Shown here in pieces: positions 19,995 through 57,390 of a stretch of 64,000 bases of DNA. The position numbers and the translations under genes were made by a program. The notes below the pieces were generated by a model. The model made no database searches, was not told the origin of the DNA, and saw nothing but the letters and a program-made list of their open reading frames with translations. This DNA is from Acorus gramineus (Eukaryota > Streptophyta > Magnoliopsida > Acorales > Acoraceae), in the NCBI GenBank assembly GCA_030737835.1, contig CM060851.1, positions 10,716,154 through 10,780,153 on the forward strand. The letters run 5' to 3'. Position 1 is the first letter of the stretch; each line of letters begins with the position of its first letter.

Positions 19995-20003
19995 ATATCA
20001 TTG
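19995..20003. repeat. LINE target-site duplication, 5' side
   Basis: ATATCATTG, a perfect match to 6462-6470. It fixes the 5' end of the truncated LINE at 19994. Confidence 0.85.
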
Positions 20004-29500: not shown

Positions 29501-29606
29501 GTAATTGTTGATGTTGTTTAGGGTATATTATTGACCTCTTGTTTAGACTGCTGATATCATATATACACTTGCCGTGTCCTGGGGACGGCCGCCCTGGGGC
29601 GTTACA
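26529..29606 (+). repeat. Solo LTR, family 2-like, nested in the Tat RT, 3078 bp
   Basis: Starts TGTTGTGCCTGTGTCATTTG and ends CCCTGGGGCGTTACA. Flanks are GGATA (26524-26528) and GAATA (29607-29611), a 5-bp target duplication with one difference. Tat RT sequence resumes directly after it. In order it contains the LTR start, a GTG-repeat block, donor-like CCAAG/GTGAGC (27340/27341), a CpG-rich tract (about 27470-27960), a 36-bp exon-like box (28074-28109), two copies of a 115-bp cassette (28427-28541 and 28657-28772), acceptor-like 'ttctccag' (29208) and the LTR end. No internal region is present, so it is a solo LTR. The long frames in the CpG tract are artefacts of base composition. Confidence 0.82.
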
Positions 29607-32259
29607 GAATATACTCAAACAAGTGCTACAAAGATGCAGAGAATTTTCACTTAAGATGAACCCAAAGAAATGTCGCTTTGGTGTCTCTTCTGGGAAGCTC
29701 TTGGGGTTCATGGTAAGCAAGAGGGGGATTGAAGTTGATCCAACTAAAGCAAGGGCCATTGCCCAAATGCCCCCACCCAAGAACTTAAAGGAATTAAGAG
29801 GACTCATCGGTCGGCTGCAATTCATCAGGAGATTCATCTCGCAACATGTCGAACGATACCGCCCCTTTTACAAACTACTAAAAGGGGGAGTTAAGTTTAA
29901 TTGGGATAACGAATGCCAAAAGGCCTTCGATAGCTAAAAGAAATATCTCCTTAATCCCCCAATCCTCTCAGCCCCGGTACCCGAAAACTTCTTTTATGTA
30001 GAAGCAACCGAGGAGGCCATTGGTGTTGTGCTTGCACAACACGATGACACGGGAAAAAAAAAGAAAAGGCTGTTTACTATCTAAGTAAGACACTAATTGA
30101 ATATGAACAAGCCTACCCTGCCATAGAAAAGACTTGCTTAGCTTTAGTATGGGCTTCCCAAAAACTACGCCATTATTTTCTTGCCCACAAAGTCAAGTAC
30201 TTTGCCAAAATAGACCCAGTAAGGTTCCTATTCGAGAAAGCTGTATTAACTGGTCGCTTGGCCCGATGGCAAGTCTAGTTAAATGAGTTTGACATCACTT
30301 ACGCCACTCAGAAGTCAGTTAAAGGTCAATCCATTGCTGACCATCTCGCTCACCTCCCTCTCCCTGATTATGAACCAGTGAGGACCGACTTCCCAGATGA
30401 AGAAATATTTGCACTCATCGAAGAGAAAGATAGGAAGACATGGACACTGTACTTCGACGGAGTAAGTAATCAACAAGGGAGAGGGATAGGAGTAGCATTA
30501 ATCTCTGCCGAAGGCATCATTATCCCACGGGCGTTTCGGTTCACATTCAACGCCACCAACAATATTGCCGAATATGAAGCTCTGATAGCAAGTTTGAAGG
30601 CAGCTCTAACCCTAGGGGTAAAAAATCTAGACATTATTGGAGACTCACTTTTAGTAATTTGCCAGACCCTAAAAAAATGTCAGACCAGGGACCCAAAATT
30701 AAAACTATATAGAGAGCTAGCTATAATCCTATTGAAACAGTTCTGTAAGGTCACCCACATCTTTATACCTAGAACGGGCAATATTCTTGCAGACTCTTTA
30801 GCCTCATTAGCTTCATCACTTGCCTTCCCCATATCCAAGAAATCTGAAATGGTCACTATCTAGAGACTAGAAACACCTGCCACCGAACTTCGAGATTGTA
30901 AAACTCAAAACCTCCTAAATCAACAAAACCAAACAGAAGGAATCACTAGTACCACAAAAATCCTAGCCCTTGATCTAGAAGATATGGATGACGGAAATCC
31001 ATGGTACTTTGATATCAAAAACTACCTCGAAGATGGTTCACTTCTAGAATACGCTACCAACGGCGATCAGAAGATAGTTAAAAGGATAGCGACCAAATAC
31101 TGCCTCCGAGGGGGAATACTCTTTCGAGCATCCTTCAACGGGGAGTTACTCAGATGCCTAGACGATGAGGAAGCATACACCATTGTAGAAGAAGCTCACT
31201 CTGGAGTCTGCGGAGGTCATGTCAACGCTCAAATGCTAGCAAAAAAGGTACTAAGAATGGGCTATTACTGGCCCACACTCGAAGGGGATTGCAACAAATA
31301 TGTTCGACGCTGTGTCCAATGTCAGACTCATGCCAACAAAATACATGCACCAGCATCTTCCTTGCATCCCATGACTTCACCATGGCCATTTTCTATGTGG
31401 GCATTAGATGTAGTAGGACCATTCCGAGACACAGTAGAAAATACCACCCAAAAAGCTTTCATCCTCACTGCCACAGAATATTTTACCAAATGGGCCGAAG
31501 CCGAGTCCTATGTACTGATCAAAAGCTCCCCCTGGCCCGTTTCGTTCGTACCCATATCCTTGCATGGTTCGGCACCCCAGAATGATCATAACTGATAATG
31601 GCCCCCAATTCATTTCCCAAGAATTCTTGGATCTGTGTGATGAACACCACATAGAGCTTCATCACTCCACACCATATTACCCCAGGGAAATGGGCAAGCA
31701 GAGGCCACCAACAAAACCTTGCTCAGAATCATAAAAAAGATAGTAGAAACCCACAGAGCTACTGACTAGCCAGACAGATTAGTTCATGCCCTCTGGGCTT
31801 ACCGAACCTCTATCCGAACACCCACCGGCCAGACCCCATATTCACTCACATTCAGGGTAGAAGAGGTAGTACCTTACGAAATTCTTATCCTGTCCTTAAG
31901 AATAGTATTAGAAGAGACTACAGATCGAAGAGAGAAGAGAAGCGCTCCTGCTACGCCTCGAGCTGTTAGACGAAAAGAGGTTAAGGGCCGCAGACCATGC
32001 CCAGGCCTACCAGAGGAGGGTGGCAAGGGCATTTGAAAAGAAAGTAATAGAGAGAAAATTTAAAATTGGGGAGCTAGTACTCAAGCAAATCATGCCATCA
32101 AGGCAGCCCCACCCCAAAGGCAAGCTACAACCCACATGGGAGGGACCCTATGTGATCACCCATGCCTACTCCGAGAATGCCTACCGCTTGGTGGATGCCG
32201 AAGGAGTCGAAGTCTCAGGTTCGTGGAATGCACTTTATCTAAAGAAATTCCATGCATGA
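29607..32259 (+). mobile_element. Tat/Ogre-lineage element, part 2: RT end, RNase H, second RNase H, integrase
   Basis: 29607-29937 holds the RT thumb (MNPKKCRFGVSSGKLLGFMV, LIGRLQFIRRFIS). About 29950-30250 holds the first RNase H (APVPENFFYVEATEEAIGVV, YPAIEKTCLALVWA). 30378-30863 is a second, archaeal-type RNase H (TLYFDGVSNQQGRGIGVALI, NNIAEYEALIASL, GDSLLVI, ADSLASLAS), a hallmark of the Tat lineage. 30984-31595 begins integrase, with the zinc-binding EEAHSGVCGGH and CVQCQTH and the core start WALDVVGPF. Further core sequence follows to about 31870 (DNGPQFISQEF). 32020-32259 is the integrase tail (WEGPYVITHAYSENAYRLVD). The polyprotein is broken in several places and is a fossil. Confidence 0.88.
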
Positions 32260-33021
32260 AACTCTCAATACTTGAGAAATATTATTCTTCCTTCCTGTGA
32301 TTTCCAGTGTTTAGCACCTGACGATAGAATTATAAGACTCTCAAAGATAACTTGTATTTTATTTGAGCTCATATATCCACCACTCATACCACTTTCATCA
32401 CACCAGTATGACTTAGGAATTGGTTTATCTGATAAAAGGAAAAATTGCCTACCCTGTAGACTGGGACAATTTTTTAAACCCAAAGCATCTCCCCTTATTC
32501 TCGCCCTCACTCGTATCAACCCAAAGGCAAAATGAGGAATTACCTGGACAAGGCATATATCCCAAAACTGGCTCTGACACTATATAAACACTTCTAGAGG
32601 GGAAGTAGAAAAGAACAGGGGTGAAAAGCAGAAAAGCACCCCCCCTCAAAACAAAACAAAGCAAAGCAAAAGAAAGGCAATGAGAGGCCAAAGATCAAAG
32701 CAACACCCAGACAACGGGTTAAACTCTCTACTTTAGCAGGCGCGAATGCCTTTACACATAGTATATGCTGAACAAAAGGCTATACTAGTACACATCCAAA
32801 CAAACGGATTGTACTCTCCACTCAAAACACGGGTACACACCCGAAGGGTTGTACTCTCCACCAAATAAAGAAATGATAAAAAGAAGAAAGCCAGAGGGAC
32901 CTAGAAAGTATGACATATGCCAGACTGGGATAATTCTAAAATATTGCCCAAAGGAAGATATTACTCTTACCCCATTCACCCCCACCCTTTTATTTCCTGC
33001 CAACGTTCGGAAATGCGCCCC

Positions 33022-33119
33022 GTGCGGCCGCATATGCGGCCGCACGAGCGGTTCGGTCGCTCGACCGAACCGCCTGGGACTAAATGCGTGCATATGCCGA
33101 TTAGGCCCGCATATGCGGG
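33022..33119. repeat. Cluster of three perfect palindromes
   Basis: 33022-33045 is a 24-bp perfect palindrome with half-site GTGCGGCCGCAT. 33048-33073 is a 12-bp perfect inverted repeat (GCGGTTCGGTCG, two-base loop). 33106-33119 is the 14-bp palindrome CCCGCATATGCGGG. All three fall within 98 bp of an otherwise ordinary sequence. Confidence 0.9.
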
Positions 33120-33796
33120 TCTGCCTCCCAACCCATTTAACCAAAAAACAAAAAGGATCTCCTTCGACCAGCTTCAGCCGGCCCTAACTGCAATGACCCC
33201 AACTGCGATCTTCCTGAGGAGTCCTTAATCTTCTTCACTGATAGGCCTGACCTTCTTCAATTAGGGCTGCTTCTTCTTCTTCTTCTTCTTCTTCTTCTTC
33301 ATACTCTTCTTCTTCATGCACAAAGCTTCTTCTTCGTGAGGTCTTTTTCTCCAGCCGTTCAACAGTCCAGCTTCTTCTTCAGATCATCTTCTTTATCAAC
33401 CTCTAATCTTTGTTTTCTCTCTCACTCTCTCTGTTATCTCTCTCTCACTGTTTTGTTTTTTTTATATGGATTTGTTTTAGGCAGAGAGAAGGGTTATGTG
33501 ACACTTGTTTTTGGTGTGCCTTAACAAATTGGGACAATTGTCTTCCGGATGATTTTTAATTTGGTTAATTTTTTTTTGTTATCTAAAACCAATTTTTTTT
33601 TTTTATTTGGACAATCAATTTTTATTTGTTAGAATGTATGTGTTGGTAATCTAGAATATCTTATAGTGAGGTATTTTGATTAAAAATAATATCTTGAATG
33701 TGTTTAACACATGTTTTATATATATATTTTTAATATTTATCTTCATATATTTAAAAATCATCATAATATATTTTTTATTAATAAAAAATTATAGAA

Positions 33797-33885
33797 CCGC
33801 ATATACTTCCGCATATACTCCCGCATACCGCATATACTCTGTGCGGTACCCCAACCACACGTAAACCGCATACCGCATATCAAAA
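33797..33885. repeat. Degenerate 'ccgcatatac' repeats
   Basis: Five to six copies of (a/t)ccgcata(tac/cc) within about 90 bp, sharing the core GCATAT with the palindrome cluster 0.7 kb upstream, plus 'gtgcggt'. No coding content. Confidence 0.65.
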
Positions 33886-34760
33886 CACTATTTCTTGCTA
33901 TGGAGTTGGAATTGAACTATGTCTACTCGGAAAGGCAAAATCTCAACCAAAGATAGACCTTTTCCTATGTTTACGACAGCACACACTCACATGAGTTCAC
34001 TTAAAACACTTGCCTATCTAAAGGAAGCTTACTTGACTTAAATCTTGGTGCATTCATGGATTTCCCAACATGTTTAGAATAATATGATTAAGCATTTGAG
34101 AACCATGAACTTGAGGAATTGACACCTGAGGCCAAAACCTTTCAAATACAATCTTGGTTTGGACATAGGTGACCACAAGGGCCCCTCTTCAGGGACTTAA
34201 TGGCATCTTTTACTTAAGAAAATTGAAAACATTGCCCTCTTACATAAAAGATCCTTTGAAGAATTAAAATGCTCCCCTATGCCACTCACCCCTATGCATA
34301 AGGTTGTATTTTCCTTTTCCAAACATTTAGGCATTCAATTTTCCTAAAATACCACAATTAACTCCCATGGCAAAAGAAAATTCCCCTTATTACTTTCATT
34401 TCATACCCTTCCACACACATTTGAGAAGGAAAATTGCCCCACTCTCATACACACCTGAGTGTCTTTTTTATTCTCACAAATTCTCATGCATAGAGTCGCT
34501 TAGACTCACTGCTCTTTATGTCGAGCATGGTTTCTCGCACTTTTTTTCCCTTACTTTTAAAATTACCTTAGATGGGTCGTAGCCCTTGACAATTAGAACA
34601 AGAAGGGCTCGAAAGTCAGTGCAGGGGCACAACATGAACAAATTTAACACTTGGTTCATAGAAAGAATATTTTTTTCAGGTTTTGAAGGTTGACCAAACA
34701 CTCACAAGGCTCTCAGCAAATGACAGCAAGACAGTGGAAATCAAAAGATTGTCCCAGGCC

Positions 34761-34906
34761 AAGGGCGACTAAACCTGTCTAGGCGCTTGCCACTAGATGG
34801 CTGGAACCAACTAGCCGTTTCCCTAAAGGTGAATTCTACCAGTCCTTGGGCGGCTAAACAAAACCAGCCGCCCCTCACTGGACGGCTCAAAACAACTAGC
34901 CGCCCC
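34761..34906. repeat. GGCGGCT/AGCCGCC hairpin repeats
   Basis: Several short units with GGGCGGCT and AGCCGCCC in opposite orientation, for example an 8-bp perfect stem at about 34848-34875. The same word family recurs at 42531-42626, 43319-43348, 43503-43528 and 43896-43955. Confidence 0.7.
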
Positions 34907-35341
34907 ATACCTACTGCCCAACCTGCACTATCAGTCCAGTTTTAATCAACTCTTCAAATCCCCAATACCTATTAAGAGCTTTTCTTTCTGAAAAACCTGT
35001 ACATACACATTCCATATGTACATATATTTGCAAAACTTGTATAAATACGATTAAAAAATGACTACATTCCAAAACCATATACCAAACCATGCATTCATAC
35101 GCCAAATTCATTCACCCACAACACCAAAACCATAGGAAACCATTCCACATATACCAAACCAAATCAAAACCAATAAATACCCTTTTAAACCAGAACTAAA
35201 ACACCCATATCCACTTACATAAGATTATCAAAAGAGAAATTATGAATTGTTCATAAAATAGAAAGGTAAACCTAAGTTTAACTGAAAACAAATGATAAAT
35301 AGGTAGAGATCCATCCATAGCTTCAACTCCAAAGTCTTGAG

Positions 35342-35993
35342 CTATGCATCATCAAAATAATCACCTGAGCCAAAAGAAAAGAAGAAAGCGTAAATTTGTT
35401 GCCATACATACAATTCTTCTACCAAAACCAAGACACAAAAGCTATACCTTGGAGTATGATCGTTTGTGGGAGGCTGGGTTGAAGGAGGAGCATCCTGGCC
35501 TGGCTGAGAAGGAGGAGGTGGCTGATGAGAGGACTGAACTTCTGGAGTGTTTGGAGCGGCGGGAGTCTCCCTCACAGAAGAAGCAGCCCTCGTGTATATC
35601 CCACGACTCCGAGTCGCTGATGGGCGAGAAGCTCGACTAAAGGTAGCTCCGGTGGCTAGGGAGGCAGAGACCGAGTGATCAGGCTCAAGAGGAAGAAGGT
35701 CGAGGTCCGCCTCAGTCATGGGACCTCCTCCAACCAGCTTCCCCCTCATAGTAGCCTCCCAAAGGAGGATCTGCTGAAGCTCCCTGTCCTTCCTCTCCAA
35801 CCTCTGGCAGAGACGACCCTCCGTCCCCCTCGATCAATCCTCGACCACCCTCAACCGCTCCTCAAGCTCCCTGGCCCTCTCCTTCGTAGCCCAAAATCTC
35901 TCCTCACTCAACCGGAGTGCCTCTCGATCTCTATCCCCGGCCGCTTGAAGAGAGTGGACCAAATCTCCCATCAAGCCACCGATAATGCCCACC
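35342..35993 (-). other. Far end of the antisense region (C-terminal, low-complexity)
   Basis: The minus-strand frame at 35800-35342 begins MERKDRELQQILLWEATMRG, then becomes rich in Ser, Pro, Thr and Gln (PPPPSQPGQD, STQPPTND). It continues the coiled-coil region found on the other side of the solo LTR at 39211-39617; the GATGC duplication shows the two were once contiguous. Function is unknown. It looks like the disordered tail of the PMD protein encoded antisense in the Tat element. Confidence 0.55.
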
Positions 35994-35998
35994 GATGC
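35994..35998. repeat. Target-site duplication of solo LTR, left
   Basis: GATGC immediately before the LTR start TGTCACG at 35999; identical to 39206-39210. Confidence 0.9.
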
Positions 35999-38900
35999 TG
36001 TCACGCCCCAGGGCGGCCGTCCCCGAGACGCGGCAAGTGTATATATGATATCAGTAGTCTAAACAGGAGGTCAATAATATACCCTAAACAACATCAACAA
36101 TTTCAACACAGACAACAATGAAGCTGACATGATATATACACGAATAGCGGAAGCTAAAATACTGAATCTGTAACTCAAAGACATATTACAGACTCGATAC
36201 ATAATCAACTGTCCTGTGAGAGCCAATATATACAACGACATCCAAATATAATACAAACGCGTGCCCAAGCACGGAATATAATACATACAATCAAAAGGGA
36301 TGCTGATAGCCTCTAAAACTCGCGGGACGTGGCGCTGCTCCGCTACTGATGAAGTCCCTCGGGGAGCTCCTCCTCTAGATCCGACTCAGATAACACTGGA
36401 GAATAATTTTATGCGAGGGGTGAGCCACACGCTCAGTGAACAGCACAACCCATGCATCACAATTTATATTAACCACCAGATATTATTAACCACAATTTAT
36501 CAATCAAGCCTCAAAGTGGCAGGAACTACACAAATCCAGTGGGTCGCTATCGCCAACCCACTACACCCTCACCCTCACCCCTCAATAGGTGACATAGGAT
36601 ATTGGGACTTACAAACCAGTGGGTCGCTATCGCCAACCCACTACACCCTCACCCTCACCCCTCAATAGGTGACATAGGATATTGGGACTTACAAACCAGT
36701 GGGTCGCTACATCGCCGACCCACCACACCCTCACCCTCACCCCTCAATAGGTGACATAGGATATTGGGACTTACAAACCAGTGGGTTGCTACATCGCCGA
36801 CCCACCACACCCTCACCCTCACCCCTCAATAGGTGACATAGGATATTGGGACTGACTAGGCTGTTGGTCACCCTTGGTCCACCGATAGTCTCTCCTCCAC
36901 TCCGTAGCCGCTTGGCCACTCCCACATTCAGCACAGTCCGTCCCAAATCAGGAGGTGCCTACTGATGGGAGCCCTCTCACGGGACGGCCTTTCTAACGCT
37001 GGGGCAGTCTCTACACGGATCCAACGAAGGGAACATAACAGCCTATCCATACGCATATGATCCACTCGGATCCGCCGACAACACATCTCAACAACTCTAA
37101 TGTCATGAATTCTTCAGAATTCCTCCAGGGCGCATAACCAAGATGCGGGGAAGCATATATTATAATAATAACAGGGTTATAATATTATTGGGAAAAGAAA
37201 CCTTGGGAGGGCAGCATGAGGTCCCGATATAGGACATCCCGACAACCAAACAAGGAACACGGAGTACCCTAGCCCGGGTCTCAATGTTGACCTCGCAAGG
37301 CCCCTCCCTATAATATTATCTAAGACATGCTAATAATCATATGCTAGCATTTAATTTAATAAATTAAACTAGTAGGACACATGCATAGGTCGAGGCTTCC
37401 TAGCATGAGAACAGGGTAGCAGGATACACGGCTCTTATACATATCCTAAGGGTGCAAGTCCCTAACATGCAAAGTCTAGGGTAGCATGCATTCTACACAA
37501 CAATCATGCTTGCATGGATTACACATTACACAAGTTAATATAAATCCATGGTGCCCCAGGGGAGGACGGTACACGCCCAAGTGCATATAACGCCTCCCTA
37601 CTGGGTTGGATTGTCCCACTCACCGATAGTCGGGTCGTCGCGCGACCGTCCGTCAAGATCTGCAAGATAGGGTAACCAACTAGGTGAGTAAAATCCACAA
37701 ATACCCCAAAAATACATTAAAAATACACAACACTCGGACAAGCGTGCATACGGCCAGTACGCCCGCGAGTCTGAGCACTCCGACTGAATCCCTAACTCCC
37801 CGGGCAGCCGTACACGCGGCCACCCGACCCAGGCGCACAGCCGCGCCCGAGCCCGCGCACCCATGCGCACTGCCGAGCCCAGCCCGCACGCCCGGACACC
37901 CTGCCGAGCCCCCCACCGGTGCACTGCGCGCTCACTGCGCCCCAGCGCAGCGACTCGCGCGCACACCCGCACGCCTAGCACCCCGCGCGCACCACCCGCA
38001 CGCCACACCGCGCGCGCACAGCACGCCCTGCGCCACCCGCGCAGCGCTCCGCGCGCACGCCTCCGCACGGCGCCCAGCGCGCAGCACCCGTACGTGGCCC
38101 CGCGCGCGCAGCATGCACTGCGCCTCTGCGCAGCGCTCCGCGCGCACGCCCTCGCACGGCGCCCAGCACGCAGCACCCTCACACACCAGCTCCACCCGCG
38201 CGCACGCCCGCGCTGCCCTGCCAGCATGCCCGACAGCACCCAGCCCTGCGCCAGCCTGCGTTGCCCTGCCTGCCTGCCAGCCAACCCGGGACAGCCCTAC
38301 CACCTCTCCGACGGCCACCAATGGCCTCCAACCGCCACCGACCGCCACCAACGGCCACCCACCGCCACCCACAGCCACCCCTACTCAAAAACACCCTCCT
38401 AACATGCATCTAAACAAGAAAGGAAGGAAAGGAAACCTCACCCAAGGAAGGAAAGGAAGGAAGGGAAGATCGGTTGCTCTTCGCGCACCGAAACACCTCC
38501 ACAAAGGCCACCACCACCAAGATCTCCCTCAGCCCTAAAAACAGCTGAAATCAGAGGAGAAAAGAGGGCATGAGAAGGGGTCACGCATGTGGGAACTCGA
38601 ATCTGAGACCACCGGAAGGTAGATCGGGAGCTCACCTATCCTTTCTCTTCTTAGGGTTTTTGATTTCAACCACTTTAGCTAGGTCAAAAATGAGGTTTAG
38701 AGAGAGGAGGAGAGAGAAATCTTGGTGGAGAAGATGATGAATAGTGGGGGGGAAAGATATTTTAGCTCACTTATAACTCAACCCCCACTTAGATTAGCCT
38801 AACCTAGGTTAATTAGGGTTTAAGCTAGGATTAGGGAGGCTTAAGTGTGGTTTGACCCTAGTCAACCCAACCACACTAAAATCCAAACACATTTGACCAA

Positions 38901-39205
38901 GTCATGGGGCCCACTTTGACCAAGTCAAGTCTCCCAATGACTTCTCGCTCAGTCAAAACCCGGATACGCTTCGGAACTGCAAAATTCTGAAACGTTACCG
39001 GAATTTGATGAAATTTTCGTGAGCGGCTTGGAATGGCACCAGGACACATAGTATGCAGTTAGATTCTCGATCGGAGTCCTCAAACTCAGGACGATAGCTA
39101 ACAGTCCAAGATTTTAGCAGTTCTGATCGAAAAATGAAAAAAATCGAAAAACTGCCAGAATGTCCCAATGGTGACCAGAAGGTTAAAAGTGACACATATA
39201 TAACA
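35999..39205 (-). repeat. Solo LTR, family 2, 3207 bp
   Basis: Complete LTR with ends TGTCACGCCCC and ATATATAACA and a perfect 5-bp duplication GATGC on both sides. There is no primer site, internal region or partner LTR, so it is a solo LTR left by LTR-LTR recombination. It carries four tandem 80-bp units (36536-36854), the shared 115-bp cassette (about 37190-37312), the exon-like box (37624-37659) and a CpG-rich tract (about 37740-38280). It matches the partial LTR at 24418-24830. Confidence 0.92.
36536..36854. repeat. Four tandem 80-bp units inside the solo LTR
   Basis: Units start at 36541, 36621, 36701 and 36783 with GGGT(C/T)GCTA. Each holds CACCCTCACCCTCACCCCTC and 'ggtgacataggatattggga'. 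The sister LTR at 26529-29606 has a single unit (about 29020-29095), so the array expanded in this copy. Confidence 0.92.
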
Positions 39206-39210
39206 GATGC
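39206..39210. repeat. Target-site duplication of solo LTR, right
   Basis: GATGC directly after the LTR end ATAACA; identical to 35994-35998. Confidence 0.9.
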
Positions 39211-40178
39211 CTCTAGTTCTGATACCCTCACCTGGAAGGAGTCTCGCTCATGGTGCAGGAGGGTGAACTCCTCTCTCGACGCAATCCCGGACCTCAGCTG
39301 GTCCCTCTCCTCTTCAGCCCTAGCAGCCATCTCCCTCACCTGGTCGAACTCCATCCACATGACCATCAGCTCGCTTCAGGCCGCATCTAGCTTTCTCTCC
39401 AACCTGAGCTCTTGTTCGGAAACTATGGACGGAGGAGCAGAGGAGGAAGAAGCGCCATCAGCCCTTGCTCTCAACAGAGCGTCCACCTGGGCCTCAAGGA
39501 CTCGCACCTGGTCCTGCAGCCGGCACCTCTTGGTTCTCAGATGCTCTACTTGCTCAGTCCTCGCCTGGAGATGTCGATTGGCGGCCTCCAGTTTCTTCTC
39601 CAACTCATTCAGCTCAGCCTACACAAAGAGCACATATTTTAATATGGAGTAGAAGAAAGAAAAAACTGAGAAAAGAAAGAGAGTTTTTCTTACGTAGGCG
39701 TCCGGGATCTCCTCCTCCATAGTCCCAAGGATGTTGACATATTCTTGGCAATACCAAGCCATGTACTCCTCGCTACTCATCACCTCAAGACGACGCTTGA
39801 CCAAGGTCCTTCTCTCTCCCATCCCGTCACATATGTTGCATAATTCTTCGGGAGATTGGTATCCCAAGGAATACCAGCCACTGGGATCGGATGACGCTTC
39901 GGTAGAGAGTCAGGCACCCACTGATGGTACCCAAGCTGGCGGACGACCCGGCTGATCGCGTGGAAAATGACCTCGTTAAAATAGATCAGCCAGACATCTC
40001 TCGACAACGCCTCAGGGACCGCTTCCTCCGTGCCTCTTGGAATTGCACTAGACGACGCAGATGAAAAGACCCTGGAGGTGCCCACCTCATAGCCCAAGGG
40101 AGAACACAGTTGAAGGGCGGCGGAGTCGGACGGTTGATAGCAAAGTGCACATATCCAAAAACCTACAGGAGAAAACAA
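39211..40178 (-). other. Antisense region downstream of the PMD core: coiled coil
   Basis: Minus-strand blocks follow the PMD core: 40178-39780 (GFWICALCYQPSD, VWLIYFNEVIFHAISRVVRQ), an overlapping frame to about 39690 (EEYMAWYCQEYVNILGTMEEE), then 39617-39211, a charged heptad-like stretch (KKLEAANRHLQARTEQVEHL, LQDQVRVLEAQVDALLRA). The blocks are separated by short gaps with GT...AG-like borders on the minus strand (donor near 39690, acceptor near 39618), so the region looks spliced. A coiled coil suggests self-association. The region is interrupted by the solo LTR at 39205 and belongs to an LTR-element fossil. Confidence 0.6.
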
Positions 40179-40211
40179 TTATCAGAATCAAAGTGAAACA
40201 AATCAAAATAT

Positions 40212-40970
40212 CTATATCTCTCTTTCACTAACTTTTACTTGAAGGAAGGCCGCAAACCCACCGAGGTTCTTACCCCCGGCCCTCTTCACCTTCTTTGAAA
40301 GCTTCGTGCAAAGGTGGGCGAGCATCGCAGCTCCCCAAGCAAAACGTCCCATGGTCTGTAGGTCCCTCATTAGCAGCAGAGAGTGAGAGGAGACCTTATC
40401 CGAAGCCGTCGAGAAAAGGACCCTACCAAAGAAGTAGAGGAAGAATGCTCTCAACTCCCTCCGTGCCCTCTGTGGACATGCGGCCGCCTCCCTCGCCTTG
40501 ATCATCAACCTCCTCCTCTCATAACTGGCCGCTGCTTCACCCTTCTGGCGCTGCGTGAAGGAACCGAGGCCGTACCGCCTCGACAACTGGCCTAGAGGGA
40601 TTCGGTTCAGCGTCCTCTCCCGCTCCACGAACTCCCACTCTCCAATCAGATCTTGGAAGAGGGCCTTGTAATCAGCACATGTAGCCACAATCACCGCCTC
40701 TCCTAAAACTGGAAGACCAGTGATCCGCTGGACGTCCTCCAACTTCTGCATCACTGCACCCATGGGGAGGATGAAGGCACAACTCTCTGGATCCCACCTC
40801 TCCGCCAATGCCTCCAGATACGGGCGGTGGACATGGAATTGATCGATCAAGAAAAAGGAACGGAAGCCCGCTCCATCCACCAAATTTCTCTCCTCCGGCT
40901 TTAGGGCGTCATACCATCTCTTGGTCCCGTGCCACAAAGCCCGTATGCGATTCGGTCACGCTGAAAGAGA
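40212..40970 (-). CDS. Plant mobile domain (PMD, aminotransferase-like) core, antisense in Tat element
   Basis: The 241-codon frame has the two signature parts of the plant mobile domain. Early is 'FILPMGAVMQKLEDVQRITG' followed by LPVLGEAV, the counterpart of 'F.LP.GE..ITLEDV..LLGLP..G.PV'. Late is WGAAMLAHLCTKLSKKVKRA followed by GGKNLGGFAAFLQ, the counterpart of 'WG...LA.LYR.L......K.IGG...LLQ'. Host PMD proteins (MAIN and MAIL1 of Arabidopsis) act in nuclear silencing and gene expression; PMDs are also known in Ty3/gypsy and Mutator-like elements. Borders look like splice sites on the minus strand: acceptor 'ctctttcag' just above 40970 and donor 'CAA/GTAAAAG' near 40237. Position between the Tat integrase and the polypurine tract, in antisense, fits the extra antisense ORFs reported for Tat elements. 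A domesticated or captured host gene is the alternative. Confidence 0.75.
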
Positions 40971-41053
40971 TAAGAGATAGCATCAGAGGTAAGCCTCTCC
41001 ACTTAAAAAAGAGGAATTCTCAAAATCACGACCATGCTTAGAAAGAAATACGT

Positions 41054-41251
41054 GCACAAGCATGAATATTTAAATACACCTCTTTTTACCCCAAAACATT
41101 CCACCATGGTCTATCTCTAAAAACAATCGAAGTTATTTGAAAATTCACCATGGCACAAGCATGAATATTTAAATACACCTCTTTTTACCCCAAAACATTC
41201 CACCATGGTCTATCTCTAAAAACAATCAAAGTTATTTGAAAATTCACCATG
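41054..41251. repeat. Tandem duplication, 99-bp period
   Basis: Two near-identical copies begin at 41054 and 41153 with 'gcacaagcatgaatatttaa' and end with 'aaaattcaccatg'. Only one or two differences are visible. It lies in the presumed intron between the acidic leader and the PMD core. Confidence 0.92.
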
Positions 41252-41574
41252 CTCAAACACACTAAATAAAACACATTTTCCTTTTTCCTATCATTAAAAC
41301 TATTTATCCATGTAAAGCATGCTTTTAACACTCCCACCATGATCATAAACACATGCCTACATGCCATCCTATACTAAAAGCATCTTCATTTTGAAAATTT
41401 ATTCCCTTTTTTTCACATACACATACATCTCTTATCAAAACCAACACCATATCTATATATACAATAAAGCATCATATAAACCATAAAGAATGCATGCTTA
41501 TGAAATCCCACCGTGATTGATTTTCTATGAATACACAAACAAGCATGCCTATTAGAAGCACATATATACATTTC

Positions 41575-42347
41575 TTACGCATTATTCATACCACAAAGAC
41601 ATATGTATAGAATAAAAGCTATACAAAGGGAAATAGAGGCATACCATGGCTCGTGTAGCCCCGGGAGCCTCCGCCTCAGCCTCGTCGGGATCGTCCATCC
41701 CATCATCGTCTCCCTCCTCCTCATCCCCCTCCTCCTCAACCATGGCCTCCTCGGCCTCCTCCGCACCAATACCCCCGCCCTCTGTGGCCTCAACTCCCAC
41801 ACCCATAGCCTCTTTGGCCTCAACTTCAACCCCCTCACCCTCCTCCATGCCCGCTACATCGGAAGCCAAGACCTCGTAGTCCCCCAGAGCCCTCCTCTCC
41901 TCCTCCTCAGCCCCGGCCTCTCCGGCCTCCCTCTCTAACATCCCTAGGATGGCATCCAAAGATGCCCTCTCCTCTACACTAACCCCCTCAACCCCAACCT
42001 ATTCAACTACACCTTCAGCCGACCCTCCAGCCTCAAAGCCCACCTCTTCGACCACCACCGGTCAAACCCCGCGCCTCCTCTTGCGTGAGTATCCTATCAT
42101 ACTACTCACCGCCCCAAGGACAAACCCCCGAAGGCATGCCCCGGACTGCACCCATGCCCATCAATGGTGTCTCCGCTGTTTGGGTCGTCTCCTCCGCGAC
42201 CATTCTCTCTGAACCATCGCTCTCCAACGAGTCCGACCCTGAGGCAGCCCCCCTCTGCTCTCGGGAAGACCAGAGACTCTTCATCATCGAAGCCATCTTC
42301 TTCCCCTTCGTCATCTCCTCGATTTCACAAGAAAAAGGAGAACCCAA
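41575..42347 (-). other. Acidic leader of the antisense PMD region
   Basis: Minus-strand frames at 42347-42102 (MTKGKKMASMMKSLWSSREQ, ESDGSERMVAEETTQTAETP) and 41959-41640 (very rich in Glu, Ala and Gly, for example EEEGDEEEGDDDGMDDPDEA) precede the PMD core. A donor-like ATG/GTATGCC lies near 41645, and about 0.67 kb of AT-rich DNA separates it from the PMD acceptor. Low complexity makes reading-frame calls weak here. It resembles a disordered acidic N-terminus. Confidence 0.45.
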
Positions 42348-42385: not shown

Positions 42386-43156
42386 TCTAGGGCAAAATCA
42401 AGCAAATCTAAAGCCAAGAAAACAAGTTTTTTCGGTTTGAAATGAAGAAGAAGAAGTAATGGAGGGAGAGAAACCGTTTTGAAAACGTGCGGGAGAGAGA
42501 GGTCCTTTTGCGATTATAAGTAACCCAGTCGGCCAGCGGCTACTTGCGAATAGCCTCCCCCTATCCGGTGGCTCATATCAACTAGCCGCCCCTCCCTGCC
42601 GGCTAAACTCAACTAGCCGCCCCCTGCCAGCTTCTCAAACACACTTATTTTCAAGTTTTCTAAAAACAAAACAGCCATGTATTGGTTTATTTCCAAGTCT
42701 TACTTGATCAAACACATTTCCAGTACAATTCAGTTTAAATTTCCTCAGTTCTGGTTCTTTTCTGGAATCTTTGTCTTTTGAATGATCCAATTCACCAAAT
42801 CAAAAACATTTTATTTACTTTCTGTCTGTGATATCCCCTTGATTTGCTGAGTTACCCAAGCACGGGTACGGTAGGCACAAGGAAACTGACGTCGGGCTGC
42901 TCCGTGCACGATGGCTAAGAACCCCGTCCGAGGGTTGGATCACTCGCTTCTTTACTTTTACTCACTCTCCCACCTGGATCAGTCTTTAGATGACTATTCT
43001 AGTAAAAAAAACCCAGCCTCTGATGGTCTAAATCAACTCCCTGAATAGTACCGGCCATGTTACCTAAATTCTTGAAGGTTGGGCCAGCCAAAATAAGGGT
43101 CTCTTTCTTTATCAACGATCGAAGTCTTTCTGTTTTACACAAAGACTCCGTCCGAT
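42386..43156. other. Leader of the antisense region and pre-PPT DNA of the Tat element
   Basis: No gene recognised. 42531-42626 carries GGCGGCT/AGCCGCC hairpin words. The rest runs to the polypurine tract and is probably the end of the Tat element's internal region. Confidence 0.5.
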
Positions 43157-43166
43157 GAGGGACAAT
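43157..43166 (+). promoter_or_regulatory. Polypurine tract of the Tat element (candidate)
   Basis: GAGGGACAAT directly before an LTR-like start TGTAGATACCCTAATTTTGA. Priming of plus-strand DNA at such a tract is normal for Ty3/gypsy elements. It sets the element's orientation as plus, agreeing with pol. Confidence 0.6.
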
Positions 43167-44000
43167 TGTAGATACCCTAATTTTGACAGTTTAAAGAAAA
43201 GAAATTTATTTCAAGTAATATTGGAAACAACCACATTTGGACGTTCAATAGAAAACTTCCATAGATAAACTAAACCGAAAACCCTAGTCCACACTGAGAA
43301 GGTCTAAAGACCTGGACAGGGGCGGCTACTAGAGAGTAGCTGACCCCAAACCGCCTCCCTGGATGGGACGTAAAACAACATTTAATGCTGATGATTACGG
43401 TGGTTTGTGCCCTTTTAGCCGCCCCATCTCAGGCTGTTCAACCTCAGTAACCGACCTAAGCCACCGCTTGTCAGATATGAGACTTTTGGCAGGTCATGAT
43501 TAGGGCGGCTACTTAAGAGTAGCCGCCCCTCACCTGGACATTGTCAGAGAATAAAGATCTAATGGGGGGTCAAATATAGCACCTTATTATCTATTTTGAT
43601 CTATTGTCTAGTGGACACTCCCCTACACCTGTTTTTTTACTATAAATAGGGGGTCTCCAAGCACTTCTTCCATCATCAACAATCATCAATCAACCAAGAA
43701 TCAATCCATACCCACACTCACAAATCAACCCACAAACCCTTCACCACCTTAAAACCCTTGAGAGAGAAACCTATTTCCTACACCAAATCACTCTCAAAAT
43801 CCACTCTCCAAAACCCAGGTTAAACCTAGCTCAACCTTTGCCAACACCCAAAAACCAAATCCTACCAAGGTTCTGCCCAAGTTGAACCAGGTCCCAGGCG
43901 GCTACTCAAAACTAGCCACCCCCCACCAGGCGGTTAAACCCGACTAGCTGACCCTTCCCCTAGCCCCCCTGAGTGTCAATTCTCCTTTAGCCAAGTTCCC
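43167..44000 (+). repeat. Tat-element LTR (start clear, end not fixed)
   Basis: Starts TGTAGATACCCTAATTTTGA, a wording typical of Tat/Ogre LTRs. It contains a TATA box (TATAAATA, 43641-43648) followed by CT-rich leader sequence. U3 has two hairpins, 43319-43348 and 43503-43528; the latter is a perfect 11-bp stem GGGCGGCTACT with a 4-base loop. I cannot place the 3' edge; the end coordinate is approximate. Confidence 0.55.
43641..43648 (+). promoter_or_regulatory. TATA box of the Tat LTR
   Basis: TATAAATA, then a pyrimidine- and A-rich leader with 'catcatcaacaatcatcaat'. It is the only good promoter signal in this LTR. Confidence 0.6.
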
Positions 44001-44671
44001 GAAGCAGAAGAGGATCCCTGTGTTCACTTCTGTGTACGGCATGCCCGTGTATCAGAGCGGAGACTCCACAAACTCCCCCACGAAGGCGATCAAATCCAAC
44101 ACCCAACTTTTTCTTGCTTTTGGAGAAAAGCAGGTGGCGATCACAGCCACCCATGAATCCTCCTGAGGACCTGTCGGCCGCCTCAGCCAGGAATGGAAAA
44201 CCAACCCACCACCCTTCCGAGAGACGATCCGACCGAGCCTACCAAGGCGCGCACCGGATACCGAACCTCCGAAGAACCCCCACACACGCAGACCCTGAAG
44301 GACCGGAAGAGGGGGGAAGGCTTTCCGGAGCACGACCAAACCCCAACCTCCTTCCAAGATCCAATATCGACAGTGACGAAGGGTGCATCCGAGCGAGAAG
44401 GGCGTGAAGAATCAATCGCAGTCGAAGCGACTGGGGGCATCCCTTCCGCAGTCGAAGCGAATGAGGGCATCCCAACAGGAGTCGAAGCGGCTCCCATGGA
44501 GGAGAAGTCATGTTTAAAGTACTCTCCAACATCTCATCTGGGGGCACATCTGACGGGGCAACAACCACAGGCACTTAGCCTGCCGCAACAACTAGAGTAA
44601 CTCCAGAAGAGGGAGCTGAGTAAGCCATGGCCGCTACCTCCTCGGCAAGGGAGGGCTCAATAGTATTTTCT
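44001..44671. other. Tat-like DNA after the LTR, possible gag start or antisense tail
   Basis: Frames are open on both strands. The plus frame 44193-44600 starts MENQPTTLPRDDPTEPTKAR and contains 10-residue repeats (AVEATGGIPS, AVEANEGIPT, GVEA...) from 30-bp DNA repeats at 44418-44490. A minus frame (44357-44052) may instead be the tail of the antisense ORF upstream. I cannot decide between them; no domain is recognised. Confidence 0.35.
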
Positions 44672-45256
44672 CTAACTAAAGCTCTGGAGGCAACTACTGG
44701 AAGATAGACCCGCAACCGACTCTATTTCTGGAGAAGAGGGAACCTCCACCATCTTTGGTACTCGAATGACTGGGGGACTTGGTGGGCATCCCTCTTCGTT
44801 GGAAGGCACGGGAAGCTCGACGGCAGCCACATCGACATCACTCAAAGGTAGATCGCTCCCCAAAGGGGATGCTTGGGAGACGTCCGATAGGGCTTTGGCT
44901 CTGCCTTTGGACTTGCCTCTCCAAAGGCAAGTCGGACGAGCAGCCTTAGTCCGCCGTTTTGAAAGAAGTGGCAGCTTAGGCCTCTTCTTCAAAGCCGACT
45001 TGCCTTTGGAGGTAGCAGACTGTTCACCCACTTCTTTGGAAACGGCAGAGGAATAAGCTTCAGCGAAGGAAGAAGATGCATCGACTCCCGAAGATAAGCC
45101 GGCAACCTTCGAAGAGGAACCAGGGGCCCTGGCTGCGGGGAGGCTGAGGATTTTGCAAAAATCCCTATCCTCCAGCTCTTGAGCCCTGGCGATCTGATCG
45201 AACTTAACCACTGACGGGTCTAGGGGCGTACGCTCTGAGTCATTTGCAAGGAGCAT
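44672..45256 (-). other. Antisense ORF, low-complexity middle part
   Basis: 194 codons rich in Ser, Ala, Lys and Pro (KGKSALKKRPKLPLLSKRRT, then GKSKGRAKALSDVSQ and VEVPSSPEIES). Basic patches look like nuclear-localisation-type sequence. It follows, on the same strand, the gypsy-type-domain block at 45402-45880 and is probably the disordered part of the same antisense ORF. Confidence 0.45.
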
Positions 45257-45401
45257 ATGAGATTCATCAGCTATGAAAGGGAAGGCAAATAAGGCATAAA
45301 AGTCTAATGATTTTTATGCTCACCCAATTTCGTCGAACGGAGACAACATGGCACCCTAGCCTCTTCACCCGGAATGGGAGCAGGAAGCACCCAAGGGCCA
45401 C

Positions 45402-45880
45402 TCAGCTGCACGAGGCATTCTTCCCACAAACCACTATCAGAAGAAGGAAGCGTTCCACCAGAGAAATAGCGCCAGGCCTCACTCGCAGATAGTACGCGTG
45501 TTCTGACTTCCTCAAGTCATAAAGGTGGTAGATGTCATCTACCCCGGCTGAAGCTGTAGCTTGCGATTGATCATCACGACACACATCAAAACCCTTAACA
45601 GGTTGGGGGAGCACTGAGTCGGATGAAGCTTGAATCGGTGCATGGAATCCCTGACCAGTTCAGGGAGAGGAAAAGAGAGAGAGCTTCTCAGCATCTGAGA
45701 GGGATACATGAAAAGCTTCTCAGAGGTGTGGCCCTTCAGATTGTCTATGGTTTTAAAGGGAGTGTGAGTGATAATGATGGAATCTAGAATGGATAGTGAA
45801 GTCCGCAGCCTATGGACAATGTTTATTGACATGGTAGCGCGAGAAGAAAAAAGAGGAGAAGCAAAGTTTGAAAATGGCAA
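45402..45880 (-). other. Antisense 'putative gypsy-type transposon' domain, copy 1
   Basis: The minus-strand blocks 45880-45539 (LSFPLPELVRDSMHRFKLHP, then CSPNLLRVLMCVV) and 45614-45402 (DDIYHLYDLRKSEHAYYLRV) match the domain known in Pfam as Transposase_28, 'putative gypsy type transposon'. It is found in plant Ty3/gypsy-associated ORFs and its biochemical role is unknown. Compare the clearer copy at 57424-57963 (LSLPLPQLVAEFLDFFGLHP, then VPNVNRILMCVV). This copy is broken. Confidence 0.6.
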
Positions 45881-46566
45881 GGGGATTTGATTTTTGAATT
45901 CTCTCTCCTCTTCTCGTCAAGTGATGAGTGCTTATAAGAGCGCCTCTTCCTCGAGAGCTCCCCGCAATCATGAAAAGGTGTGAAAATCGAGATCGTGAAA
46001 GATTTTTCACTGAAATCTTTTGCAGAAATCGAGGGGGGGCTGGCACGGGAGGCGAGGCGTCAGTTTCGATAGATGTGCGACTAACGTGGCGAGTTTATGA
46101 CGTTTCTATCTCTGACTTTCCACGTGGCCTCATGAAAGGACATATTGGTGAGAGGGTCGCTACGACTAGATGGACGAGACCAGAGACATCATGATGGAGC
46201 GCATGTCATAAGGCATCTCTGCTCGTTTCACGCAGAGTAGCCTAGTCATCTAGTACGGGCGATTTGCGGTTGAAATCAAAGCGACTAGCCTTGAAGTGCT
46301 AAGGCGGGAAAAAGTAAGCGTGCGACAAGGAAGATAACCTAGGTTCTTTAAGGACTTAGCTAAATGACATGAGTAACAAAGGCAAGGTTGATTCGAAGAG
46401 TAATTTTTTATTCATTTGATTGGATAAAGATCACACACATATATGTTCAACCCTCTGTTCAGTTCTATGCTCGGCCCTTCCCACGGAACCTCCTCTCCCG
46501 TGCAACGGGGTGAAGTATGGGCAGCTTCGCGTTGCTCATCTCTCGAAAACCACGCGAGTGGTCAGC
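45881..46566. other. Non-coding Tat-like DNA upstream of antisense copy 1
   Basis: Mixed composition, no recognisable domain. On the minus strand 45881-45960 would be the leader of the ORF at 45402-45880. 46196-46566 shows nothing I can name. Confidence 0.45.
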
Positions 46567-46995
46567 TTAGCCCATGCGGTAGCTGCTGATGAAGTCCAGG
46601 AGGCGATCTTCTTCATCACCTTCACAGGCTTCGTGGAGGAACCGTATTTGTTGATCTATGGTGAGGACGGCTGCGTGAGCTGAGACTTGCAAGTTCCTGG
46701 ATGGATCGCCCATAGGGAGGTTGACGCCCAGAAGATGATCCTCCAGAGTAGGAGCAGCACCCACATTAGCAACCGGGATCACCGGGGGCACCGCCGGTAG
46801 GGCGTCAACATCCATGTCACGGGTGGGAGGAACAGTTTCCCCAAGGGGAACAGACGATGAGGAGGAAGATGATCGAACGACAGGTGATGGAGACGGTGAG
46901 ATAGAAGGTGGTGAGGATAAGATTAAGTCCACCGGTAGGGCAATGAAATTTGATCCAAAACCCAACCGGAGGAGCCTCATAGAGCACCGCCTCGT
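46567..46995 (-). other. Antisense ORF, C-terminal part, cut by family 1b
   Basis: 137 codons: a Ser/Pro-rich stretch then a helical end (TIDQQIRFLHEACEGDEEDR, then LLDFISSYRMG). It probably continues the antisense ORF at 57183-57963 on the other side of the family 1b element. No named domain. Confidence 0.45.
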
Positions 46996-47061
46996 CTACA
47001 TTCGGTCTTCCCTTTGGGTTTCCTTAAATTTCAAGGACTAAATTTCCTAAGAGGGGGAGAA

Positions 47062-50000
47062 TGTTATGCCTGTGTCATTTGGAGCCATTTCGGTTAAGCC
47101 TTGGTCACATCTAGGTCATTTAGGGCATTTTTCCTTTTCGATTGGAGTCGCTAAAATTTTGAATTTTAGCCACCTGCGGGAGTTGGAGTAGTCTGATTGA
47201 AAATCTAACTGCATATTATGGGTCCTGGTACCGTTTTGTACTACCCATAAAAATTTCATCGAATTCCGGTAATGTTTTGAAAAATATGCAGTTCCGAATC
47301 GCATCCGGGTTTGGCTGTTACTGGATTGTCAAATGGAGACTTTGACCAATCAAAGTTGACTTTGTCAAGTCAATGGGTTTTGTTTGTTTCCTTGGTTGGG
47401 TTGACAAGGTCAAACGCCGCCCCCCCAAACCACCCACTTTTTGGGCATTAAACACCCTTTGAGAGTGAGAACTCTCTCTCTCCCTCTCCCTCCAACGTCC
47501 CTCTCTTTTCTCTCCCTTTTAGGCTTTCTTTAGTGAGTTTTAAAGAGAAAAACAAAATCAGCAAGTGAAGGAGAAGAAGAAGCACAAAAGGGGGTGCAAA
47601 GAAGATGATTAAGGTGTGTGTGTGTGTGCATTCATGTTGTTGTTGTTGTTGTTGATTCTCCTCTCCTTAGCTCCCTCTCATACCCCCCCTTTTTTTTGCA
47701 CCCCTGTTTTCAGCCATGAAGGGCTTGAGGAGATGCTGATGAGGTAGTGGTGGTGGTGGTGGTGGTTGAGGTGGTCGTGGGTGTGTCGAGAACCCCGCAT
47801 CTCCCAATTTCCCTCCCCCTGTTTCGGTAAGGCAGCTCTCTGTCTTTTAAAGATCTCAGTGAATCTAGTATTTAGAGGCATATTTTTAGGATTATGTCTT
47901 CATATGATATGATCATCTATGTGTCTAGTTGTTATATATGAAATTTGGGGTCATTATGATATCTGTGGTGTAAGTTAGAACCAGTTTTGCATGGCCTATC
48001 CAGATTCGCGTAGGAATTGACCTGCTTCTGGAAATAATTTATTTCGGGCATGTAAAGGAAAAATTAGGTTCTAATGTCTTCATGGATTATGATCCCAGCA
48101 TAACAGAGAATGTGCATGATTTATTGCATAAATTTTGGAAGTGTATTGGGTGCTGTGGAGACCAATTAGTAGGGCTGGTTGCAGCAGGTTTGGCAGTTTT
48201 GCTTGGTTGAGTGTCAAGGAGTTGTTTGCATGTGTCTTGGGTGATAATATGGAAGTATCAGGGGTTAGGGTCTTCATGAAGTAGGCTTATATGTGTGATA
48301 GGAGGTTCCATAATTTAATTATGGATCATTGGTTGTGTTTTGCAGATCTCGTAGACCGGACGCGCGGCGATCCGGGTATCGGTGAGTGGTTTGATCCAAC
48401 CCTTCGGGAAGCGTTGGATGCATGTAGTCGTGCGTCGCGCATCCGTTGGGCACCCTGACTATACTACTTAATTAGATAAGTAGTATGGTCATGTCTAACT
48501 CATAATATGTTAGATATCTTGCATGCTAGGCTTATATTGCATGTATTGTATCCATGTATGAATGATTGTATCGCATGCGCCCCTCTAGTATGGGCATGTA
48601 TTTCTGTAATGTGCATGGATGTATAGAATAGGCATGCCTTAGGTAGTATTGTAATACTACTCCCACTATATTAATTGGAATATCCAGCATGATTAAGTCT
48701 CGAGGGCGTGGTGTAGTTTTGCGCCCATGATAATGGGGCAAAGCTATGACCAACTTCAAGAGATGATGATCTCTCTCTCGCCCTCTCCCTCTGCACGAAC
48801 TGAGTAAGTAGATGCGATTTCCTACTCGACTTAGGTTCGTTTGGAATATTGGCATGCACCTGTTAGTGCGCGAGATCGCGCTTGACCCTTTCGTTTTAAG
48901 TTGGTGATATCCAACGCATGCTTAAGTAATGGCCATGTATGCATGTTGTATGATTTGTTGTTTATGATGTAAATCCATGTTAGGGAGTATCCCTATAATT
49001 ATTTGATAGGTTATCGTGCATGTAGTTCATGTACATAACTAAGATATAATTCCCTGGATATATATGCGCATGTTAAAACTGATTAGGCCTATCTGAAATA
49101 GGCGTGGGTATGACCCGTTGTCGGGTTGTACCTTATTAGTTAGAGCGCTAGCGATGTAATTGCCCCCGTGCATCCGAGCGATGCACTCATTTGGAATTCA
49201 GGAGAATTCATTATCTTATCGGTTTTGTTAAGCCGGTAGTTGTGGCATTAAGCTAGGCCTACCCGTGCTAGGCGTGTATATGAACCGCCTGTTGGGTTAT
49301 GTGCCTTAGGATTATTTCTATGTGAGAGAGCAGAGGCAACCCCCCTGTGTCCGAGCGACGCAACCGTGTGGGAGTGCAATAGTATTCGATATCATTGATA
49401 TGTGATTATCAAGAGTAGTTATTTTTTCATTGGGTTCGATGTTCGCTTTGTGAACATGGAGTGTTTCCTCCCAATGTCGTCTGTGTTGAAGCGCCCCGGG
49501 TTGTAGCTGTCCTGACAGAGGGCTCCCATCCGTAGGTACCACCGATGCGTTCGGAAGCGTACTGATCGTGGGAGTATACCAGGTAGAGGCTACCCGAGAG
49601 AGGGATAACGAATGATATTGCGAGCATGAAATCGTTCTCCCCTTCGTTGGATCCGATGTAGGAACTCCCCGGCGTTGGAAAAGCTGTCCTGACAGAGAGC
49701 TCCCATCCGTAGGTACCACTGATGCGTTTGGAAGCGTACTGATCGTGGGAGTATACCAGGTAGAGGCTACGTGGGGAAAGGGCTACCGGTGGACCAAGGG
49801 TGTAGAGCAGTCTAAGTCTCTTCCAAAAGTCCTATGTCACCTCTAAAGGGTGAGGGTGAGGATGAGGTGAAGACATGTCGCCGCGTGACCCATTCGTTGT
49901 TCGTCCGTTCCCATAGTTGTTGGGTCCGGTTGCGTATCGATGTTCAAAGACATCGTTGGGCAGTTATCCCGATGTAGATGATCCAGTAGGTTGTGTAGAC

Positions 50001-50734: not shown

Positions 50735-50739
50735 AAAGT

Positions 50740-53468: not shown

Positions 53469-53483
53469 AGGGGGGGGGGAGAA
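53469..53483 (+). promoter_or_regulatory. Polypurine tract of family 1b
   Basis: A run of G ending in AGAA directly before the 3' LTR start TGTTATGCC. A second copy of this boundary precedes the 5' LTR (47050-47061). Confidence 0.85.
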
Positions 53484-57182: not shown

Positions 57183-57390
57183 CAACCACACCGGCAAGAA
57201 GCGTTGCAACGGGTGGAGCACGTCGCGGTTCCTCCAATCCAAGTAGCTCCCACCACGATCGGTCCGGATACTCCATCACCTGGGAGATGTCATCCATCGT
57301 CACCTCCTTGACCTCCGGCCTGGGGGCATCCACCATCGGCTTTCGAGGGCGACACAAGTGGCGATGGAACGAATCCCAACCATCTGGCAT
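57183..57390 (-). other. Antisense ORF middle part, next to family 1b
   Basis: About 70 codons on the minus strand (MPDGWDSFHRHLCRPRKPMV, VTMDDISQVMEYPDRSWWEL) lie downstream of the gypsy-type-domain frame at 57424-57963 and are cut by the LTR end at 57182. The continuation is probably 46567-46995. No named domain. Confidence 0.45.

Follow-up and report, generated by a model that had tools for sequence, protein, structure and literature searches.

We analyzed a 64,000-nucleotide stretch of the Acorus gramineus genome (assembly GCA_030737835.1, contig CM060851.1, forward-strand positions 10,716,154 to 10,780,153), hereafter the window, whose own numbering is used throughout. It contains the remains of a retrotransposon of the Tat lineage of plant Ty3/gypsy elements and, on the opposite strand, blocks that look like a gene for a plant mobile domain (PMD) protein. 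We consider it very likely that the locus belongs to a Tat-lineage Ty3/gypsy family which carries, between its polymerase region (pol) and its 3' long terminal repeat (LTR), an antisense multi-exon PMD gene that has kept its introns. This reading is built on the anatomy of the locus, on its recurrence across many copies, on purifying selection and conserved splice borders, and on introns that are retained and in part sit at the sites used in a Mutator-type PMD; transcription, splicing and the protein of the antisense gene are predicted from the DNA.

The Tat element and its antisense gene

The plus-strand pol remains gave Pfam matches to RVT_1, RVT_3/RNase_H and Integrase_H2C2, with an RT_RNaseH match at 30048-30275, RVT_3 within 30279-30863 and Integrase_H2C2 within 30864-31595. 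The SH3-like end of the integrase matched SH3_Tf2-1 below the cut-off, and the integrase stretch 31314-31592 had no Pfam match. For the second RNase H, the top NCBIfam match was a haloarchaeal RNase HI (71.4 bits, under that model's cut-off of 300). A second RNase H ahead of the integrase is the Tat pattern (PMC6317226), and the archaeal-type second RNase H found here between the RNase H of the reverse transcriptase (RT) and the integrase places the element in the Tat lineage, as the initial annotation had it. The antisense region sits between the last integrase open reading frame (ORF), which ends at 32259, and the 3' LTR, which starts at 43167. The boundaries of this LTR recur at 66-69 to 1273-1274 of window:43100-47000 in the copy matches. 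No 5' LTR was found in the window, a comparison of 42400-47000 with the whole window giving a single 45-bp match. The features are as follows, the antisense gene being given in its own direction and with the evidence for its parts, which includes ratios of nonsynonymous to synonymous divergence (dN/dS).

26138-32259, plus strand: what is left of Tat pol, with an RT interrupted by a solo LTR, the RT-type RNase H, a second RNase H, and the H2C2 zinc region and C-terminal end of the integrase
42495-42519, minus strand: TATA-like TTATAA (42519-42514) and a CT-rich patch (42501-42495), both ahead of the antisense gene
41645-42314, minus strand: exon 1, with conserved ATG, basic stretch and acidic leader; frame broken in the window copy
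40961-41644, minus strand: intron 1 (splice borders across copies)
40239-40960, minus strand: exon 2, first half of the PMD (PF10536; dN/dS)
40163-40238, minus strand: intron 2 (GT/AG borders; in-phase stops)
39694-40162, minus strand: exons 3 and 4 with the second half of the PMD, joined in the window copy by a deletion at 40031/40032
39619-39693, minus strand: intron 4 (GT/AG borders)
39206-39618, minus strand: first part of exon 5, coiled coil (weak coiled-coil matches; dN/dS)
35999-39205, minus strand: later solo LTR within exon 5 (TG...CA on the minus strand)
35342-35998, minus strand: second part of exon 5, with the end of the coiled coil and a low-complexity tail
43167-44373, plus strand: Tat 3' LTR, about 1.2 kb (start read from TGTAGATACCC, end from match boundaries)

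The minus-strand coding blocks, an acidic leader, a PMD core, a coiled coil and a tail, lie at the positions given by the initial annotation. The stretch 40215-40955 (minus strand) matched the PMD family PF10536 with 89.6 bits against a curated cut-off of 34.9 (E = 2.9e-25) and is thus a member of that family. In profile searches of the separate blocks, 39379-39618 and 38998-39375 (both minus strand) gave coiled-coil-type Pfam matches only, all below cut-off, and the leader and tail pieces that were scanned had no Pfam match. NCBIfam held nothing useful for the PMD pieces, a search of PDB sequences with exon 2 returned one meaningless match (E 0.31), and AlphaFold runs of exon 2 with six sequences had a mean predicted local distance difference test score of 46.9. 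Exon 1 encodes a basic stretch, RKRRR (read by eye), which may be a nuclear signal. The predicted family gene is composed of five exons and four introns, its PMD being divided over exons 2 to 4, and its product would have about 1000 residues, with a basic and acidic leader followed by the PMD, the coiled coil and the tail.

The window copy itself is a relic. Its frame is broken or stopped in exons 1, 2 and 5, a deletion has removed intron 3, and exon 5 is split by the 3.2-kb solo LTR at 35999-39205. A 5-bp duplication, GCATC, flanks this LTR on both sides, so that it was indeed a later insertion, as first suggested, and a piece homologous to the second part of exon 5 was present in all six of the longer copies that we fetched.

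Recurrence, introns and selection across copies

Besides itself, the PMD exon has at least 149 scored relatives, with identities of 75-93% (150 of 1037 candidates were scored), and the whole 4.2-kb antisense stretch recurs in at least 40 scored matches of 5281 candidates. We sampled copies as 50 short loci and six 10-kb copies. The order integrase end, antisense exons, 3' LTR was found in four of the six 10-kb copies; in L060 and L062 the exons and the LTR were present and an integrase match was absent within the 10-kb stretch. L060 (C2:3356-14499) duplicates the window locus at ∼94%, the match continuing past the end of the Tat LTR into the flank, and this duplicate on C2 also entered our sample as L010, L040 and L041. 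About 0.9 kb at 33001-33889 is extra in the window copy and missing at that place in five of the six fetched copies; matches to 32260-35340 end near 741 and restart near 1630, and the region is uncovered in L060.

We then related 221 distinct merged PMD places (from 150 exon relatives, 100 of 144 intron-2 places and 61 intron-3 places) to integrase copies grouped by identity; the figures are samples, among the matches listed. A PMD gene lay antisense and 2-20 kb downstream of 43 of the 85 window-like integrase copies, and within 6 kb downstream of 19 of them. In a second integrase group, an antisense PMD was found for 0 of 65 copies and a sense PMD for 2 of 65. The antisense PMD block is therefore present at the same place in other Tat copies, on which the initial annotation had made its reading depend. 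A host PMD gene standing here by chance, or a single Tat copy that landed beside a host gene, has next to no probability: host PMD genes do exist (PMC5418596), but the order is identical in other copies, and at least 150 relatives of the PMD exon were scored. The 65 listed copies of the second integrase group (G000) are 81-83% identical to the query, many with equal scores, as in a recent burst.

Splice borders and sequence identities were evaluated in 44 aligned copies, the C2 duplicate of the window being one of the 44 rows; L043 was left out because its PMD piece is missing. Intron 1 (41644-40961 in the window) begins with GT in 33/44 and ends with AG in 40/44 copies (AG counted by eye, the window row being off by one column), intron 2 (40238-40163) has GT in 42/44 and AG in 39/44, and intron 4 (39693-39619) has GT in 30/44 and AG in 33/44, with 5 of the 44 rows without sequence there. 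The GT...AG-like borders noticed in the window are thus conserved while the introns drift. Pairwise identity was 0.823 in exon 2, 0.753 and 0.708 in the exon 3 and 4 pieces and 0.711 in exon 5, and 0.608, 0.741 and 0.590 in introns 1, 2 and 4, respectively. In diverged copies, the match stops inside intron 1 while the exons still align.

Intron lengths vary over all remainders modulo 3. Intron 2 measures 69-82 bp, with every remainder represented, and has an in-phase stop in 33/33 copies (measurable in 33 of 43). Intron 3 was recognized by eye in 26 distinct copies, between KEEE and MTWRPY and mostly with the form GTATA...TTGTAG or TTGCAG; it contains an in-phase stop in 21/24 measured copies, and two further copies hold longer segments at this place. 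In the window copy and its C2 duplicate it is missing together with some exon bases. We considered a precise loss of the window's intron 3 via spliced RNA and rejected it, since exon bases were lost too. Exon 3 has 156 bp in 19/24 measured copies and exon 4 has 357 bp in 17 of the 24 distinct copies with both borders recognized (37 distinct copies examined). Exons 2, 3 and 4 are joined in phase 0, and 5/17 copies have an uninterrupted frame through all three. For intron 1, phase 0 is less well founded, because exon 1 has a length divisible by three in 7/15 measured copies and is open in one of the 15.

Exact-pattern searches of the genome found the intron-2 donor form at 144 places and the intron-3 donor form at 61, versus 0 places genome-wide for the spliced exon 3/4 junction form; reversed control patterns also gave 0. 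The introns thus appear to have been kept through repeated copying via RNA, in line with what had been proposed from the window alone. The small blocks might instead be separate antisense ORFs with spacers, every block being an ORF by itself in a gene that is known here from DNA alone, but this is very improbable given the conserved GT/AG borders, the phase-0 joins, the fixed exon lengths, the in-phase stops in introns of freely changing length and a PMD split across exons 2 to 4. By its conserved introns, its phase and the constraint on its protein, the family's antisense gene is best described as a predicted spliced protein-coding gene.

As to that constraint, the median dN/dS of exon 2 was 0.113 (946 pairs among the 44 copies, median dS 0.78, with 946/946 pairs below 1), compared with 1.38 and 1.61 when the same stretch was read in the other two frames of the minus strand, which argues that the antisense coding is more than chance. 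Restricted to full-length exons, dN/dS was 0.141 in exon 3 (171 pairs) and 0.192 in exon 4 (136 pairs). Five matched copies (the window, L059, L061, L063 and L064) gave 0.18 for the PMD, 0.26 for the coiled coil, 0.23 for the tail and 0.49 for the integrase end; a single pair gave 0.10 from RNase H to integrase. Among the pairs listed, the 15 closest of exon 2 had values of 0.21-0.77, as expected if dead copies contributed part of the change. By these ratios, the gene was under selection while the family spread. That the antisense RNA rather than a protein matters, for instance as a source of double-stranded RNA tuning the element, has a parallel in the antisense promoters and double-stranded RNA control discussed for such elements (PMC7264820), but is very improbable in view of how strongly the protein is constrained in exons 2, 3 and 4. 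In the five matched copies, the median dS was 0.135 for the integrase end and 0.425 for the PMD exon, which may mean that the modules differ in age or that subfamilies have recombined.

Several observations weigh against an intron-bearing antisense PMD gene as a regular part of this family. Among the matches listed, 42 of the 85 window-like integrase copies are without an antisense PMD gene within 20 kb, and around the 85 copies one PMD place is in sense and four lie upstream. Few copies are intact: 16 of the 150 scored PMD-exon matches have no stop (our own count, the window and its duplicate included), and of 15 copies measured for exon 1, a single one (L060) has it open over 669 bp, the other 14 containing stops. 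Exon 4 matched the PMD profile in 3/5 copies and below cut-off. At an identity of 0.741, intron 2 is hardly more variable than exons 3-5 (0.71-0.75). A spliced-type exon 2/3 pattern occurs at one place, on C66; we did not count it as a processed copy, as the pattern also fits the acceptor tract of intron 2. Finally, K in the five matched copies was 0.121 for the non-coding stretch after the integrase, 0.142 for the PMD exon and 0.481 for intron 1; the non-coding value being lower than that of the PMD exon, the modules would differ in age or rate, and recombination is likely.

Expression, function and origin

The start codon is kept in 17/17 aligned copies, 16 of which have the upstream TTATAA. 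This motif lies 181-212 bp ahead of the ATG in 14 of 15 measured copies (17 examined), and the CT patch is found in 15/15, so that the TTATAA and CT block is a candidate promoter. Since LTR elements replicate by way of RNA, their introns are expected to disappear. The genomic RNA of the Tat element, however, would be the sense strand and would carry the antisense introns merely as their complement; they should not be spliced there and should be copied whole into DNA. Antisense transcription in the nucleus, from the gene's own TATA-type promoter beside the 3' LTR, would yield an ordinarily spliced mRNA. Such an escape of antisense introns from splicing in the genomic RNA agrees with the position of the gene, its borders and the retention of its introns.

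We tentatively suggest, as the likeliest function, that the protein could be a nuclear cofactor for transcription or silencing of the element, perhaps rivalling host PMD silencers of the MAIN/MAIL1 type. Its sole basis is kinship to MAIN and MAIL1, a limitation that counts among the points against the overall picture. A wider proposal, which we hold to be rather doubtful, is that antisense placement lets an RNA-copied element possess a complete eukaryotic gene, promoter and introns included, that the introns may dodge surveillance of intronless transcripts, that the PMD protein may blunt host PMD silencing and that the gene could be a source or a captive of host MAIN/MAIL genes. Surveillance of intronless transcripts is reportedly carried out by HUSH in mammals; for plants there are mere hints of it. 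An anti-silencing use has been speculated for Mutator PMDs (Ikeda et al. 2017, PMC5418596).

Mutator-like elements (MULEs) are among the top PF10536 matches in the genome. In L003, a SWIM match barely over the cut-off and a sub-threshold MULE match are followed by a PMD, and L001 and L005 resemble this locus by eye. In the PMD of L003, one break follows LLQ (continuing with LWSWER) and another precedes VIWQPY, both in phase 0, with a phase-2 intron in between; in the Tat gene, one break follows FLQ (continuing with VFGY or IFGY) and the other precedes MTWRPY, again both in phase 0. BLASTP between L003 and the Tat gene aligned both exon pairs up to the intron ends, with an exon-wise similarity of 27-28%. 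On the PMD profile, the second break falls at position 239 in L003 and at 240 in Tat exon 4 (3/5 copies, below cut-off). Among the second-half PMD matches of the genome, 27 of the 33 listed start at profile position 238 or 239, and one match on C11 spans 158 to 346 without a break; if the matches are read as exons, the C11 PMD would be without both introns.

These common intron sites and phases, and the similarity to a PMD that follows SWIM and sub-threshold MULE matches, would suit an origin from a PMD-bearing Mutator-like element inserted backwards in an ancestral Tat element, in place of a host gene or an ancestral Gypsy form. We regard this origin as unlikely. Common ancestry with host PMD genes would account for the shared introns equally well, L003 has one additional intron, and Mutator PMDs have been placed within genic PMD-C but Gypsy PMDs in PMD-A clades (PMC5418596). 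The direction of transfer between Gypsy PMDs and host PMD genes was called fully open (Ikeda et al. 2017, PMC5418596), and the intron sites and phases of the antisense gene provide characters for this question.

Elsewhere in the window, 57523-57702 (minus strand), within the ORF 57424-57963, matched Transposase_28 (PF04195), the domain of the Retand antisense genes; frames at 45916-45402 (minus strand), right after the Tat 3' LTR, look alike by eye and perhaps also encode it. The direct repeats 46996-50737 and 53415-57185, 96.8% identical over 3.8 kb and 2.7 kb apart, probably represent the two LTRs of a short element. By eye, ORFs at 17490-20050 (minus strand), upstream of the Tat remains, are of the reverse transcriptase type of long interspersed nuclear elements, and those at 59025-61606 (minus strand) resemble a host leucine-rich-repeat receptor gene.

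Comparison with known systems

Antisense genes in Tat elements and PMDs in Gypsy elements are both known already. In the literature that we searched, we recognized no description of an antisense Tat gene with introns, which is weak evidence of absence, most subscription papers lying outside the search. Among Ogre elements, which like the element described here combine a Tat-clade backbone with a PMD in extra ORFs, 57% have a PMD (PMC6317226). Ogre likewise contains an intron, within gag-pol (PMC6317226), but that intron is on the sense strand and partly spliced, whereas the introns described here are antisense. Spliced ORF3 messages have been reported for LTR elements of rotifers (PMC5408684).

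PMDs are carried by Gypsy and Mutator elements and by the host proteins MAIN and MAIL1, which act in silencing of transposable elements with PP7L (PMC5418596, PMC7156037). The PMD of the MULE has two introns at the same sites and in the same phase as the Tat antisense gene, but belongs to a DNA transposon, has one extra intron and had no coiled-coil gene partner that we could see. Relative to MAIN and MAIL1, the element gene would add an acidic leader and a coiled coil.

A parallel in position is offered by the Retand lineage, in which antisense ORFs with the Transposase_28 domain (TRP28; Grande gene23, RIRE2 and Retand) also lie between pol and the 3' LTR (PMC11963269, PMC7264820). An antisense ORF is present here too, but the scanned pieces of the antisense gene had no Transposase_28 match, and among the matches listed a PF04195 place lay 2-20 kb down- or upstream of 0 of the 85 window-like integrase copies, so that the defining pair of the Retand sublineage, an antisense ORF with this domain, was found in its first half only. 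The available part of the Retand survey describes the use of ORF Finder and lists no PMD (PMC11963269), and a review calls for attention to antisense and spliced transcripts of such elements (PMC7264820). Whereas the Retand-lineage genes contain Transposase_28 and were looked for as ORFs without interruption, the gene described here would combine a PMD, a coiled coil and four introns. An antisense position may be what lets a constrained multi-exon gene persist in an LTR element, and surveys limited to uninterrupted ORFs can overlook a gene of this form.

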